This document shows positions 37,383-45,575 of a DNA stretch of 64,000 nt, in pieces. Every line of letters starts with the position of its first letter. Within the stretch, counting starts at the first letter, position 1. Both the position numbers and the translations under genes were made by a program. The DNA is from an uncultured Anaerotruncus sp. (lineage in GTDB: Bacteria; Bacillota; Clostridia; Oscillospirales; Ruminococcaceae). The DNA lies in NCBI GenBank assembly GCA_944385965.1, contig CALWZG010000045.1:1-64000 (forward strand), given 5' to 3'. A model generated the notes under the pieces. The model made no database searches and was not told where the DNA came from. It saw only the letters and a list, made by a program, of their open reading frames with translations.

Positions 37383-38468
37383 TCACAAAAAGAACTCTGG
37401 ATTAAGAAATGGGATGACCAGCTCCACCGCTTCCCCTTGCCCGTCCAGACCCCAGTATCCACTGTAAATACCATCTCCCATACCGCTTGAGAAGAGAACC
37501 AAGCGCTCCTGGGTTTGAGGCAGCCACCAAAGGAGAAAACTTCCGCCTGGGTTTTGCTGCTCTGGCAGCGCCTCATAGCTTTTTTGAAAAAGAGGCTGGA
37601 AATACTCCTGATACAGATTTTTCTGGGGATGCTCCCTCCGCCACTGGTCCTGAAAGTCCTGGTATTCTTTCCCAATCTGAGCGTCGGTGACGCAGGCCAA
37701 CCCTGTATCCACCCCGAAAAAGGTCCAAACCTTTGGTTTTCCAAAGTCCTCCAAAGTTTTCCCTTTGGGCATAGCGATTTCGTACCGCACCGCTGCTTTT
37801 TCGCTGATACGCAGCCTTGCCGCCGCCACCCGCAATCCCACCAGGGGAGAGCGCAAAACAGAAAGCTGTATGGGATACCGGCCAGGGGGAATCATCCTAT
37901 CCAGGCAGGTCTGATACTCCCCTCCCAAATAGGCCAGAGGATCCGCCAGAACCACCTCCCCTGTGGGAAAATCCCCTTCTCCCACAACCGTGGTCTCCAT
38001 CCACTGGTTTTTCTGGAAAAGCCCCTGGAAAAACTCCAAAGGATACTCTTTTTGATTGAGAAATTTTAAGTTCTTTTCAAAGGCCGCTTGGGCAGGATGT
38101 TTGACCCGTTCCCGAATCTCCTGTCCGGTTTTGGTATCCACAAAATAGGTTCCTGTCCGGTCCTTCCGAAGCTCCAGGTCGGTTCCAGCAGGCATGTAAA
38201 AGACATCTAAAATCGCTGGTTCTATCTTGGCCAGGGTATTGAAATCCACCACCCGCAGGTTTTTTGTGTCATCCACATAGGCCTGGGTATCGGTATCCCC
38301 GAAGGCGACCCAGCCATTTCCACGGTTGCTTTCCCTGCGGAAAAGCCACTTTAATTGAGCGGTGCCCTCTAAGATGGATTTACTGACAATGGTGTCTCCT
38401 GCCTCAGGAATAGGCGGTCTTGCCTTCTCCTTTGGCCCAGTCCCCTTATTTTTTGAAAACAGCTTCAT
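37383..38468 (-). CDS. DUF2185/DUF4241 protein, possible orphan immunity protein
   Basis: 361 residues with two recognisable parts: about 40-105, with SNRGNGWVAFGDTD, resembles DUF2185; about 150-255, with TGEVVLADPLAYLGG and RVAAARLRISEKAAVRYEIAM, is DUF4241. Both families are found among immunity proteins of polymorphic toxin systems and also alone. No toxin gene is adjacent. I start it at MKLFSKNKG; a longer version adds 12 residues. There is no signal peptide. Confidence 0.7.
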   Translation of the reverse strand: MKLFSKNKGTGPKEKARPPIPEAGDTIVSKSILEGTAQLKWLFRRESNRGNGWVAFGDTDTQAYVDDTKNLRVVDFNTLAKIEPAILDVFYMPAGTDLELRKDRTGTYFVDTKTGQEIRERVKHPAQAAFEKNLKFLNQKEYPLEFFQGLFQKNQWMETTVVGEGDFPTGEVVLADPLAYLGGEYQTCLDRMIPPGRYPIQLSVLRSPLVGLRVAAARLRISEKAAVRYEIAMPKGKTLEDFGKPKVWTFFGVDTGLACVTDAQIGKEYQDFQDQWRREHPQKNLYQEYFQPLFQKSYEALPEQQNPGGSFLLWWLPQTQERLVLFSSGMGDGIYSGYWGLDGQGEAVELVIPFLNPEFFL

Positions 38469-38533
38469 CTTTCCATGCACTCCTTTCCGTTTTTGGATGC
38501 CCAACCCGCCAAGCTCTGTTTTTTAACAAAATA

Positions 38534-41028: not shown

Positions 41029-41044
41029 ATATTAAAAATCGTAA

Positions 41045-41087
41045 CAGGGCGGCTGTGGAATAGCTCCACAGCCGCCCTGCCCTTTTG
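41045..41087 (+). terminator. terminator after the TVP38 gene
   Basis: Perfect 15-bp stem CAGGGCGGCTGTGGA / TCCACAGCCGCCCTG with a 5-base loop; the T tract (CCCTTTT) is modest. Confidence 0.65.
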
Positions 41088-41100
41088 GAAAGCTTATAAT

Positions 41101-42141
41101 TTATTTGTCCTGAGCGTCCTCATCTGTGGTGCCCAGCTTCTGGTTCTCCTGAGTGGGAAGCCCTTTTTTCTGTTTTAAGGATTTTTGCCGTTTTTTGCTC
41201 ACCAGCACCACCACCAATATAATCACGCCCACACAAACCAGCCAGAAAATCAGGATGGGGCCAGCCTCCGCCAAGAAGAGCAGTGTACCTTGCAGGAAAT
41301 TGGCCAGATGTTCCTCTCCCCGATTGAAAGAGGCAGCCAGCTTCTCTCCGAAGCTCTTGGGGGCGGTTTCCATCTGCTGATACTTGCTGACCTCCCGCAG
41401 GTCAATATTCAGGTAGGAGTAGGTCACCTGGGAATCCATCCGGCGCAGGGAGGCGGTAATGGACTCAATCTGATACCGCACATCTGATAAGGCTGTTTCC
41501 AGCTGAATCACATCCTCCAATTTTTCCGCTTTGGACAGGATGTCCAGCAGGCGCTCCTCCTGCAAGGTTAGGGAATCCAGCCGGGCTTGGGCGTCATAGT
41601 AAGTATCGGTAATATCCTCCATATTTTCGCTCATGGAGGTCATGTTGCAGATGCCCTGCAAATCCGAGGTGGCCTGGTCCAGCTTTTCCGATGGAATCCT
41701 GGCGTTGATGCTGGCGCTGCGCTCATAGTATTTGCCACCATTATAATAGGATTGGCCTCCATCCATACTCTGGGATTCAATATACCCTCCCAAACTGGAG
41801 ATGGTTTGCTTAATCTGTTCCACCGCCTGGTCAAACTCCATGGTTTCCAGGGAGATATAACTGTGCCGGATAATCTTGCGTTCATCCAGGACAGGAGCCA
41901 TACTCACATCTGCGGTAGGGGCTTCCTCTGTCACTTGGGCCATTTCGGTCACCCTGTCGCTTTCCACCATGCCCATATCATTGGCCGCCATTTCATAACT
42001 GGCTGTGGAGCTTGTGACAGCGGCAGCCGCAGTATCAGCACCTTTCCCACTGCCGCCGCAGGCGGCAAACAGTACCGCGCAAGCTGCCATCAAGGCACAA
42101 AGCATCAAAATATTTTTCTTGGCTTGGTAAAACCGTTTCAT
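41101..42141 (-). CDS. DUF4349 lipoprotein
   Basis: 346 residues. Signal peptide ending in the lipobox LFAACGGSG, then a DUF4349 domain (about 80-290) with the typical IRHSYISLETMEFDQAVEQI opening and a long helical coiled coil, and a C-terminal membrane helix (about 293-320) with a basic tail. So the protein is tied to the membrane at both ends. The start follows AAGGAGGTTTGTTT. The function of the family is unknown; the coiled coil suggests a structural or sensing role. Confidence 0.83.
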   Translation of the reverse strand: MKRFYQAKKNILMLCALMAACAVLFAACGGSGKGADTAAAAVTSSTASYEMAANDMGMVESDRVTEMAQVTEEAPTADVSMAPVLDERKIIRHSYISLETMEFDQAVEQIKQTISSLGGYIESQSMDGGQSYYNGGKYYERSASINARIPSEKLDQATSDLQGICNMTSMSENMEDITDTYYDAQARLDSLTLQEERLLDILSKAEKLEDVIQLETALSDVRYQIESITASLRRMDSQVTYSYLNIDLREVSKYQQMETAPKSFGEKLAASFNRGEEHLANFLQGTLLFLAEAGPILIFWLVCVGVIILVVVLVSKKRQKSLKQKKGLPTQENQKLGTTDEDAQDK

Positions 42142-42256
42142 AAACAAACCTCCTTTGGTCTGGTTTCTTTTCTCTTTCATCTAATGAGTGCGGTTTTTCA
42201 TTGAATTCCCTGCAAATGTCTTTTCTTTTTCGGGACTTTTCCCTTATAAAATCGGC

Positions 42257-42317: not shown

Positions 42318-43946
42318 TCACTGTCTGGGACGTCTGCGTCTCTGCTGCGAGGAAGGAGAGGGCTGTCTGCGTTTTGGGGCAGGTGTGGGAGCGGAAGGAT
42401 TGATTCTCTGCTGAGAAGGCCGCTTCCGGGGCCGCTGATATTTATACCTGCGGCGATTATGGTTGCGCAGAATCATCAGACCAATATAGGCTAAAATAAT
42501 CACAATCAGGAAGGTAATTAAAAACTTAAAGATGAACTGATTGCAGAACTGCTTCACCTGGTCCAGATAATATAAGGTAGCGCTGCGGTCCACATTGGAT
42601 TCCGCTACCAGGTCCACCCGGCCAACCTCTACCCCGCTGACCATCAGCTTTACTGACCCTACCTTGTCCCCTTTTTTCACAGGTGCTTCCAGATATTCTG
42701 GAATATCCATCACCGGCTCCAGGCTTTCCTCGGTGGTCTCTTTAGGCACCAGGGAGGCGAACTTATTGGCCGCCAGCAAAAACACTTTGTCCTGTTCCCA
42801 GTTGTATTTTACCGGGATTTCCCCAAAGCGCTCCCCGATTTCCACCAGGGTTTTTACCTCAAAGCTGCTGAAAGCCCAATTATACAGCTTGGCGCTGTCC
42901 AGCCAGGCCAGATTGTACATATACCGTTCCCCGCTCTCTGGGGCAGTCATGGGCGCTCCCATGCAGATTAACAGGTAGGTATAGCCATCCCTTGTGGCGA
43001 TGGAGGCGGCGTTCCGAGTTTGGGTGGTGGTCAGGGAGCCGGACATAACCCCTTTGACACCCTCAATATAGTAGTCAGTATCGGAAGGGTTCTGCATGGA
43101 GTTGTTGCTCACCCAGGTAATTCCATTTGGGTGCATCTCGGTGGGCTGGGAGGTATAGGTCCTGGTAGTAACAATCTCCATGAACTCCTCATTCTGCACC
43201 GCGTATTCCACAATCTTCGCCATATCGTAAGCGGTGGTATAGCTAGCCTCATTATATAAGCCGGTAGCGTTGGCGAAATTGGTGTTCATGGCCCCCACCT
43301 CTTTGGCCTTGTTGTTCATCAGCTCAAAGAAATACTCAGGGGCTCCGTCACTGATATAATCCGCTACCATCATAGCAGCCGAATCTCCCGATTGGAGCAT
43401 CATGGCGTAAAGCAGGTCCCGGATGGTCAGGTTTTCCCCCCGCACAATACCATCCGCCTGGCCCCCTCCGATGTTATACAATTCATTCTGGATGTAGGTT
43501 TTCAGCTCGGTCTTTTCTGCGTCCAGATTGATGTCGCTCTCCAGGGCAATGATACAGGTCATAATCTTGGTCAGCGCGGCAGGCTGCATCTTGACTTGGG
43601 AGTTGCGCTCCTGAAGCACTTCCCCCGAATCCAGGTTCATCAGATAGATGGCCTGGGACTGGATTTGCATATCTACTGGAAGGGAGTATTTGTTGGAGTC
43701 GGAGGAATCCCCTGGCAATGAGGTTCCTTGTTCCTCCTGGTTCTCCCCTTCTGAGGACGGGGAAGCCTCATCATCTGACGCACTTTCAGAGGATGCTTCC
43801 TCAGATGAGGTTTCACTGGAGGAGGCTTCACTGGACCCTTGGGAGGCGCTTGAGGAGGGGTCCTCCGCCATCAAGGGAAGGCTCAATGCGGAACACAGCA
43901 TCAACAGCGACAGAAAAACCACTAATTTTCTCATCTTTAAATTCAT
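42318..43946 (-). CDS. D,D-carboxypeptidase (PBP5-type) homologue with altered active site
   Basis: 542 residues: signal peptide, a Ser/Glu linker (about 28-80), a peptidase S11 domain (about 88-360), the PBP5 C-terminal beta domain (to about 455), one membrane helix (about 470-495) and an Arg/Pro-rich cytoplasmic tail. The fold is clear (QAIYLMNLDSGEVL, LLYAMMLQSGD), but S-x-x-K is A124-L-T-K127, S-x-N is S186-G-D188 and K-T-G is K298-G-V300. The catalytic serine codon is GCG at 43575-43577. It should not form an acyl enzyme, so it may be a structural or peptidoglycan-sensing pseudoenzyme. I leave it without a gene symbol. Confidence 0.9.
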   Translation of the reverse strand: MNLKMRKLVVFLSLLMLCSALSLPLMAEDPSSSASQGSSEASSSETSSEEASSESASDDEASPSSEGENQEEQGTSLPGDSSDSNKYSLPVDMQIQSQAIYLMNLDSGEVLQERNSQVKMQPAALTKIMTCIIALESDINLDAEKTELKTYIQNELYNIGGGQADGIVRGENLTIRDLLYAMMLQSGDSAAMMVADYISDGAPEYFFELMNNKAKEVGAMNTNFANATGLYNEASYTTAYDMAKIVEYAVQNEEFMEIVTTRTYTSQPTEMHPNGITWVSNNSMQNPSDTDYYIEGVKGVMSGSLTTTQTRNAASIATRDGYTYLLICMGAPMTAPESGERYMYNLAWLDSAKLYNWAFSSFEVKTLVEIGERFGEIPVKYNWEQDKVFLLAANKFASLVPKETTEESLEPVMDIPEYLEAPVKKGDKVGSVKLMVSGVEVGRVDLVAESNVDRSATLYYLDQVKQFCNQFIFKFLITFLIVIILAYIGLMILRNHNRRRYKYQRPRKRPSQQRINPSAPTPAPKRRQPSPSSQQRRRRPRQ

Positions 43947-44276: not shown

Positions 44277-45575
44277 ATGTTGGATTTTGAAAATCAGGGG
44301 TTTGGGTTTGATACATTGATGGTACACGCCGGCACCCAACCGGACCCTGTCACCCATTCGGTAACCCTGCCCATCTATCAGACCACCGCCTATACCTTCG
44401 ACAGTGTGGACCACGCCAAACGTCTGTTTGAGCTGAAAGAGCCAGGCAACATCTATACTCGTTTGAGCAACCCTACCGTGGACGCTTTGGAGCGCCGGGT
44501 AGCCGCCTTGGATGGCGGTGTGGGGGCTCTGGCCATGTCTTCCGGCCATGCGGTCATCTACAACGCCCTGCTAAACCTGGCCAACGAGGGGGATGAAATT
44601 GTTTCCTCCATCTGCATCTACGGCGGCGCCATCAATATGATGGGTGTCACTCTGAAACGGGTTGGAATTAATGTGAAATTCGTGGACCCGGATGATATGG
44701 ACGCTTGGGAAGCGGCTGTAACTCCCAAAACCCGAGCCTTCTTTGTGGAGGCCATCGGCAACCCCAACGCCAATGTGGCGGACATTGAGGCCATCGCTGA
44801 GATTGCTCATCGTCATGGAATCCCCTTGATTGTGGACTCCACCTTCACCACACCCTACCTGATTAAGCCTATCCAATATGGAGCGGATTTTGTGGTTCAT
44901 TCCGCCACAAAATTCCTTGGAGGACATGGAACGGCCATGTGCGGCCTCATCACCGATGCGGGCACCTTCCAGTTCAAGGACAACCCCCGGTTCCCCTTAT
45001 ATAACCAGCCGGATGTAAGCTATCACGGAATCGTGTTCGCTGACTGCGGACCTGGGGCCTTTATCCTGCGGATACGGGCTATGATGATTCGGGACCTGGG
45101 GGCTTGTGTGGCTCCCATGAACGCCTTTCTTATCATGCAGGGAATCGAAACCCTTTCCCTGCGGATGCGCAAACACTCAGACAACGCTTTGGAAATCGCC
45201 CGTTATCTGGAGAAACATCCTAAGGTTTCCTTTGTGCATTATCCGGGCCTGGAATCCAGCCCCTACTATGAGCGGGCACAAAAATATCTGCCTTTGGGCT
45301 GCGGCAGCGTGTTCACCTTCGGACTGAAGGGCGGCCGGGAGAACGGAGCTGTCTTTATCAACTCCTTAAAGCTGTTCACCCATGTGGCCAACGTGGGGGA
45401 TGTGCGGTCTTTGGTGATTCACCCCGCCACCACCACCCACAGCCAGCTTTCGGATGAGCAGCTGGTGGAAAGCGGCATCACCCCTCAGACCATCCGCCTT
45501 TCCATCGGCATTGAGGACGCTAAGGATTTAATCGCGGATTTGGAGCAGGCTATCAACGCCGCTATCCCGGATTAA
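44277..45575 (+). CDS. metY: O-acetylhomoserine sulfhydrylase
   Basis: 432-residue PLP enzyme of the Cys/Met metabolism family; makes homocysteine from O-acetylhomoserine and sulfide (or methionine from methanethiol). The PLP lysine is in HSATKFLGGHGTAMCG near residue 211. The beginning GFDTLMVHAGTQPDPVTHSVTLPIYQT and the length are those of MetY rather than of the shorter MetB/MetC. GTAAGGAGGAGTTTGCC precedes the ATG. Followed at about 30 bases by a phosphoesterase gene. Confidence 0.93.
   Translation: MLDFENQGFGFDTLMVHAGTQPDPVTHSVTLPIYQTTAYTFDSVDHAKRLFELKEPGNIYTRLSNPTVDALERRVAALDGGVGALAMSSGHAVIYNALLNLANEGDEIVSSICIYGGAINMMGVTLKRVGINVKFVDPDDMDAWEAAVTPKTRAFFVEAIGNPNANVADIEAIAEIAHRHGIPLIVDSTFTTPYLIKPIQYGADFVVHSATKFLGGHGTAMCGLITDAGTFQFKDNPRFPLYNQPDVSYHGIVFADCGPGAFILRIRAMMIRDLGACVAPMNAFLIMQGIETLSLRMRKHSDNALEIARYLEKHPKVSFVHYPGLESSPYYERAQKYLPLGCGSVFTFGLKGGRENGAVFINSLKLFTHVANVGDVRSLVIHPATTTHSQLSDEQLVESGITPQTIRLSIGIEDAKDLIADLEQAINAAIPD

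Follow-up and report, generated by a model that had tools for sequence, protein, structure and literature searches.

Repeated loss of catalytic residues in an exported, membrane-anchored PBP5-type (S11) protein of gut Clostridia

The locus described here raises the question of what a protein with the architecture of a D,D-carboxypeptidase may do for the cell when the residues required for cutting have been replaced. The gene is located on the reverse strand (42318-43946) of the window, that is, the whole 64,000-nucleotide stretch of an uncultured Anaerotruncus sp. that was analysed, and encodes a PBP5-type (S11) protein of 542 aa, predicted to be inactive. The N-terminus contains a predicted signal peptide (approximately residues 1-27; 43866-43946), which is hydrophobic, ends near LPLMA, and forms a helix at residues 3-21 of the structural model. 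This is followed by a low-complexity linker rich in Ser and Glu (approximately residues 28-86; 43689-43865), a Peptidase_S11 domain (42960-43670; Pfam match at residues 93-299) with a PBP5-like fold, and a PBP5_C beta domain (residues 362-453; 42588-42863). The C-terminus is formed by a membrane helix (approximately residues 475-493; 42468-42524), which is kept in both the active and the inactive members of the orthologous group, and by an Arg/Pro-rich tail, presumably cytoplasmic, that starts RNHNRRRY (42321-42467).

The original prediction of an intact 542-codon frame and a PBP5 fold is borne out by several lines of evidence. The frame is open throughout, and both domains score above the Pfam gathering cut-offs, which were used as the threshold of membership (Peptidase_S11, 120.9 bits against 27.6; PBP5_C, 45.5 bits against 21.2). 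The top matches in a sequence search of solved structures were DacB of Bacillus subtilis, the PBP5 of Pseudomonas aeruginosa (4k91), and the PBP6 of Escherichia coli. An AlphaFold model of the ectodomain, of moderate quality (pLDDT 72.8) and built from only five sequences, returned PBP5 and PBP6 as the best fold matches in the PDB when searched with Foldseek (PBP5 1nzu, E 2.4e-24; DacB 3mfd, TM 0.68). An earlier model that included the linker and the tail was poor (pLDDT 58).

An active D,D-carboxypeptidase carries a nucleophilic Ser in the SxxK motif, and an active S11 enzyme also contains SxN (or SxC) and KTG, all three of which are altered in the window protein. In the alignment with homologues, the SxxK position reads A124-L-T-K127 (43566-43577), in which the nucleophilic Ser is replaced by Ala (codon GCG at 43575-43577) and Lys127 is retained, while the SxN position reads S186-G187-D188 (43383-43391), both as originally read from the DNA. 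The third motif had also been described correctly as altered, but it was placed one triplet too early, at K298-G299-V300 (43047-43055). The alignment with 30 homologues, in which 'VKGVMSG' stands against 'LKGVKTG', rules out K-G-V as the counterpart of KTG, and identifies M301-S302-G303 (43038-43046) instead. The residues at these positions indicate that the protein is probably biochemically inactive. Ala likewise occupies the position of the SxxK Ser in two further genomes of this genus (L012 and L014).

The breadth of this loss was assessed in a sample of 149 members of the orthologous group, drawn from the family and the order, with one genome per species. The catalytic Ser and/or Lys is missing in 34 of these members, of which 24 lack the Ser and 10 retain the Ser and lack only the Lys, so that the inactivity of these latter 10 is presumed from the residues. 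On trees built without the motif columns, these losses require 13 changes (153 rows), or 9-11 once the weakly supported branches are collapsed, and 12 when the outgroup is left out (149 rows), with orthology being less certain for a small number of inactive members on long branches (L035, L065, and L168). A single shared loss for the window gene, L012, and L014 was not rejected (p-AU 0.197). An order-wide search recovered 26 loci, of which 23 are active and three are inactive members that had already been counted; L035 is the only inactive member seen outside the family. The single conserved Ala clade that had been envisaged was not found, and is ruled out by the scatter of many separate losses with differing residues. 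SxC, a frequent variant of the second motif in the group, was not counted as a loss, because it is also the form found in the Streptomyces K15 DD-transpeptidase (PDB title 1es4, a C98N mutant). The K15 protein shares the S11 fold, and differs in being an active enzyme in which SxxK and KTG are present.

Genome G124 contains an inactive copy that belongs to the group (L065, with GLTA), together with a second S11 copy (L183) that resembles the window protein and has an intact SITK. This pair is a candidate for a recent split of roles.

The other S11 genes of these genomes provide a control. The window genome contains four of them, all with intact SxTK, SxN, and KTG, which answers the question of whether a second, predictedly active dacA is present. 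The neighbourhood of one of these genes (L002) is scpA-scpB-like and, with the gene names judged by eye, presumably recalls the spore dacB locus. No loss of SxxK was found among 77 other S11 paralogues, most of them from genomes with an inactive copy, the Ser and Lys being kept in all. At the rate of loss per branch length seen in the orthologous group, 8-11 losses would be expected among these paralogues, and the probability of finding none is approximately 5e-4 to 2e-5. The recurrence thus belongs to this orthologous group, and not to the S11 genes of these genomes at large. Variation of other kinds is seen in the paralogues. A separate group (L212-L286), which resembles L003, has K-L-G or K-V-G in the place of K-T-G in many species, with SxxK and SxN intact, and another paralogue group has S-G-A where SxN is expected.

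The distribution of evolutionary rates along the protein indicates which parts of it have been released from constraint. In the inactive lineages, the motif columns evolve 3.9-fold faster, in comparison with ratios of 1.24 in the neighbouring columns, 0.97 in the rest of the S11 domain, 0.87 in PBP5_C, and 0.75 in the membrane helix and tail. Strong acceleration is thus limited to the motif columns, and the constraint on the remainder of the protein is not relaxed. A loop serine near residue 162, apparently lost in all the inactive members, was dropped from consideration, as the alignment of this loop is poor and the residue is also absent from active members of the genus.

These rates bear on the possibility that D-Ala-D-Ala stem peptides are still bound, without being cut, in the former pocket, in which case the protein would be a wall sensor or a peptide shield. 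The retention of the fold would be expected of such a ligand binder, as would the SAN and/or KTG-like triplets that some of the inactive clades retain. The acceleration is nevertheless concentrated in the motif columns, which implies that the pocket is not being held constant, and two motifs that line the binding site, SxN and KTG, are both missing from the window protein. This reading is considered to be unlikely.

The replacements themselves are of many kinds. The first motif has become A-x-x-K, P-x-x-K, E-x-x-Q, M-x-x-G, A-x-x-A, Y-x-x-K, F-x-x-Q, G-x-x-A, A-x-x-D, or S-x-x-T, among others, depending on the lineage, with A, E, G, M, P, Y, or F at the Ser position, and Q, T, M, A, D, or G at that of the Lys. 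The Lys127 and Ser186 still present in the window protein speak for a re-specialised enzyme, in which another residue would act as the nucleophile in a different reaction. The lineages differ in their replacements, however, and no new shared motif has emerged, which makes this alternative quite improbable.

The remaining biological alternative is neutral decay, in which a gene that is redundant with other S11 genes is becoming a pseudogene. Redundant S11 genes do exist, but the frames are open, and the substitution patterns are those of genes under strong purifying selection. Using a codon model written for this analysis, dN/dS was estimated at 0.014-0.104 (median 0.045) in 11 species pairs inside the inactive clades, and at 0.018-0.078 (median 0.043) in 13 active pairs, with dN/dS = 1 being rejected in every pair (likelihood statistics of 108-478 in the inactive clades). 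Neutrality is also rejected on the branch of the window gene itself (lnL -9799.05 versus -9788.33; 2dlnL approximately 21), which is saturated at synonymous sites because the gene has no close relative, and at the L012 and L014 tips, both with Ala, by approximately 106 log units (2dlnL approximately 211). The genomes contain approximately four S11 genes whether the copy in question is active or inactive, which is a further point against decay, and which also rules out compensation by extra S11 copies. Neutral decay is thus strongly disfavoured, and the description of the protein as a selected pseudoenzyme finds support. The chance appearance of these motifs, or their origin in sequencing error, is very unlikely, since a single open frame contains several codon changes that are independent of one another, and L012 and L014 also have the Ala; an artefact of the fragmented assembly (72 contigs) is scarcely credible, as the changes are in frame and confined to the motifs, and losses recur in many genomes.

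Approximately ten separate losses of these residues, with the remainder of the protein under strong selection, suggest a lasting job that is not cutting. The window gene probably encodes an inactive protein of the S11 fold, exported and anchored in the membrane, with a selected function that is independent of catalysis, and which would most likely be that of a scaffold or regulator of the wall enzymes. The selection on the inactive copies argues for a second, non-catalytic function being retained, and a membrane-anchored scaffold or partner of the wall machinery is the best guess as to what this may be. The ancestor would have been an active, D,D-carboxypeptidase-like orthologue, of the type present in most of the family. 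The protein would be exported and then anchored by its C-terminal membrane helix, from where the ectodomain, helix, and basic tail may position or modulate other cell-wall enzymes at the membrane. Peptide trimming would be left to three or so other S11 enzymes, the trimming step of this protein having become dispensable in some lineages. A broader proposal, put forward tentatively and at slightly less than even chances, is that the core role of this near-universal membrane-anchored S11 protein is non-catalytic throughout this gut Clostridia family, with the carboxypeptidase activity being an accessory that has been discarded repeatedly.

The closest known systems are the low-molecular-weight PBPs of MEROPS family S11, such as PBP5 and PBP6 of E. 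coli and DacB of B. subtilis, which share with the window protein the combination of S11 and PBP5_C, a signal peptide, attachment to the membrane at the C-terminus, and matches in sequence and fold. In contrast with these enzymes, the window protein lacks the catalytic Ser, SxN, and KTG. PBP5 is known for its amphipathic membrane anchor, whereas the window protein has a full membrane helix and a basic tail. A precedent for the proposed role is found in PBP 2B of B. subtilis, which has a structural role in the division complex that is independent of its own catalysis, with the activity being supplied by its paralogue PBP 3 (PMC5656894). This protein is, however, a class B high-molecular-weight PBP with an intact native active site, of which the inactive form is an engineered mutant (PMC5656894). 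Mycobacterial CwlM, a homologue of the peptidoglycan hydrolases, likewise has an essential role that is regulatory and not enzymatic, but it is a cytoplasmic amidase homologue that activates MurA, and thus differs in both fold and location (PMC4946905).

A search of the open-licence literature found no prior description of the orthologous group. The case for a pseudoenzyme usually rests on a single unusual sequence, whereas here the loss is repeated approximately ten times within a single orthologous group. Active orthologues and intact paralogues serve as controls, so that a non-cutting role of a D,D-carboxypeptidase homologue becomes directly testable. The idea of a selected pseudoenzyme is thereby widened to that of a protein in which catalysis is lost repeatedly, and for which the conserved function appears to be a non-catalytic one. 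The annotation of these proteins as D-Ala-D-Ala carboxypeptidases or beta-lactam targets would be wrong for approximately one fifth of the sampled group.

The Ser/Glu linker belongs chiefly to the genus, and is mostly missing elsewhere in the family, where the ORFs are shorter. Nearly the entire group has a C-terminal membrane helix followed by a short basic tail, and these features are therefore not peculiar to the window gene. The tail had been singled out as unusual, which holds for its extra length, but not for the basic tail itself, of which it is a lengthened version. Basic residues that follow a membrane helix are also what the positive-inside rule alone would predict, and their presence does not require a binding role for the tail. 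In one member of the group (L177, genome G097), the usual basic tail is replaced by a long acidic tail rich in Asp and Tyr.

The genomic background was searched for features that might accompany the loss. SpoIVA was found in all 50 genomes sampled from the family and the order, both active and inactive, which rules out the loss of sporulation as the driver. L,D-transpeptidases (YkuD) use the tetrapeptides made by D,D-carboxypeptidases. They were found in only one of the 50 genomes, and therefore represent a shared background that does not separate the active species from the inactive ones, although their near absence may ease or permit the loss of catalysis.

Throughout most of the genus, the S11 gene sits between a divergent gene for a PLP enzyme of Cys/Met metabolism (44277-45575, forward strand, in the window) and an adjoining downstream DUF4349 gene (41101-42180, reverse strand), with which it may be co-transcribed. 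A strong terminator-like hairpin of 18 pairs, which is a consensus match only, lies 3' of the DUF4349 gene (41043-41081, reverse strand). These neighbours are kept mainly within the genus, and therefore no partner gene stands out from the synteny. The product of the DUF4349 gene is a membrane protein. Elsewhere in the window (37383-38504, reverse strand), a single protein combines an Imm33 immunity domain with a DUF4241 domain.
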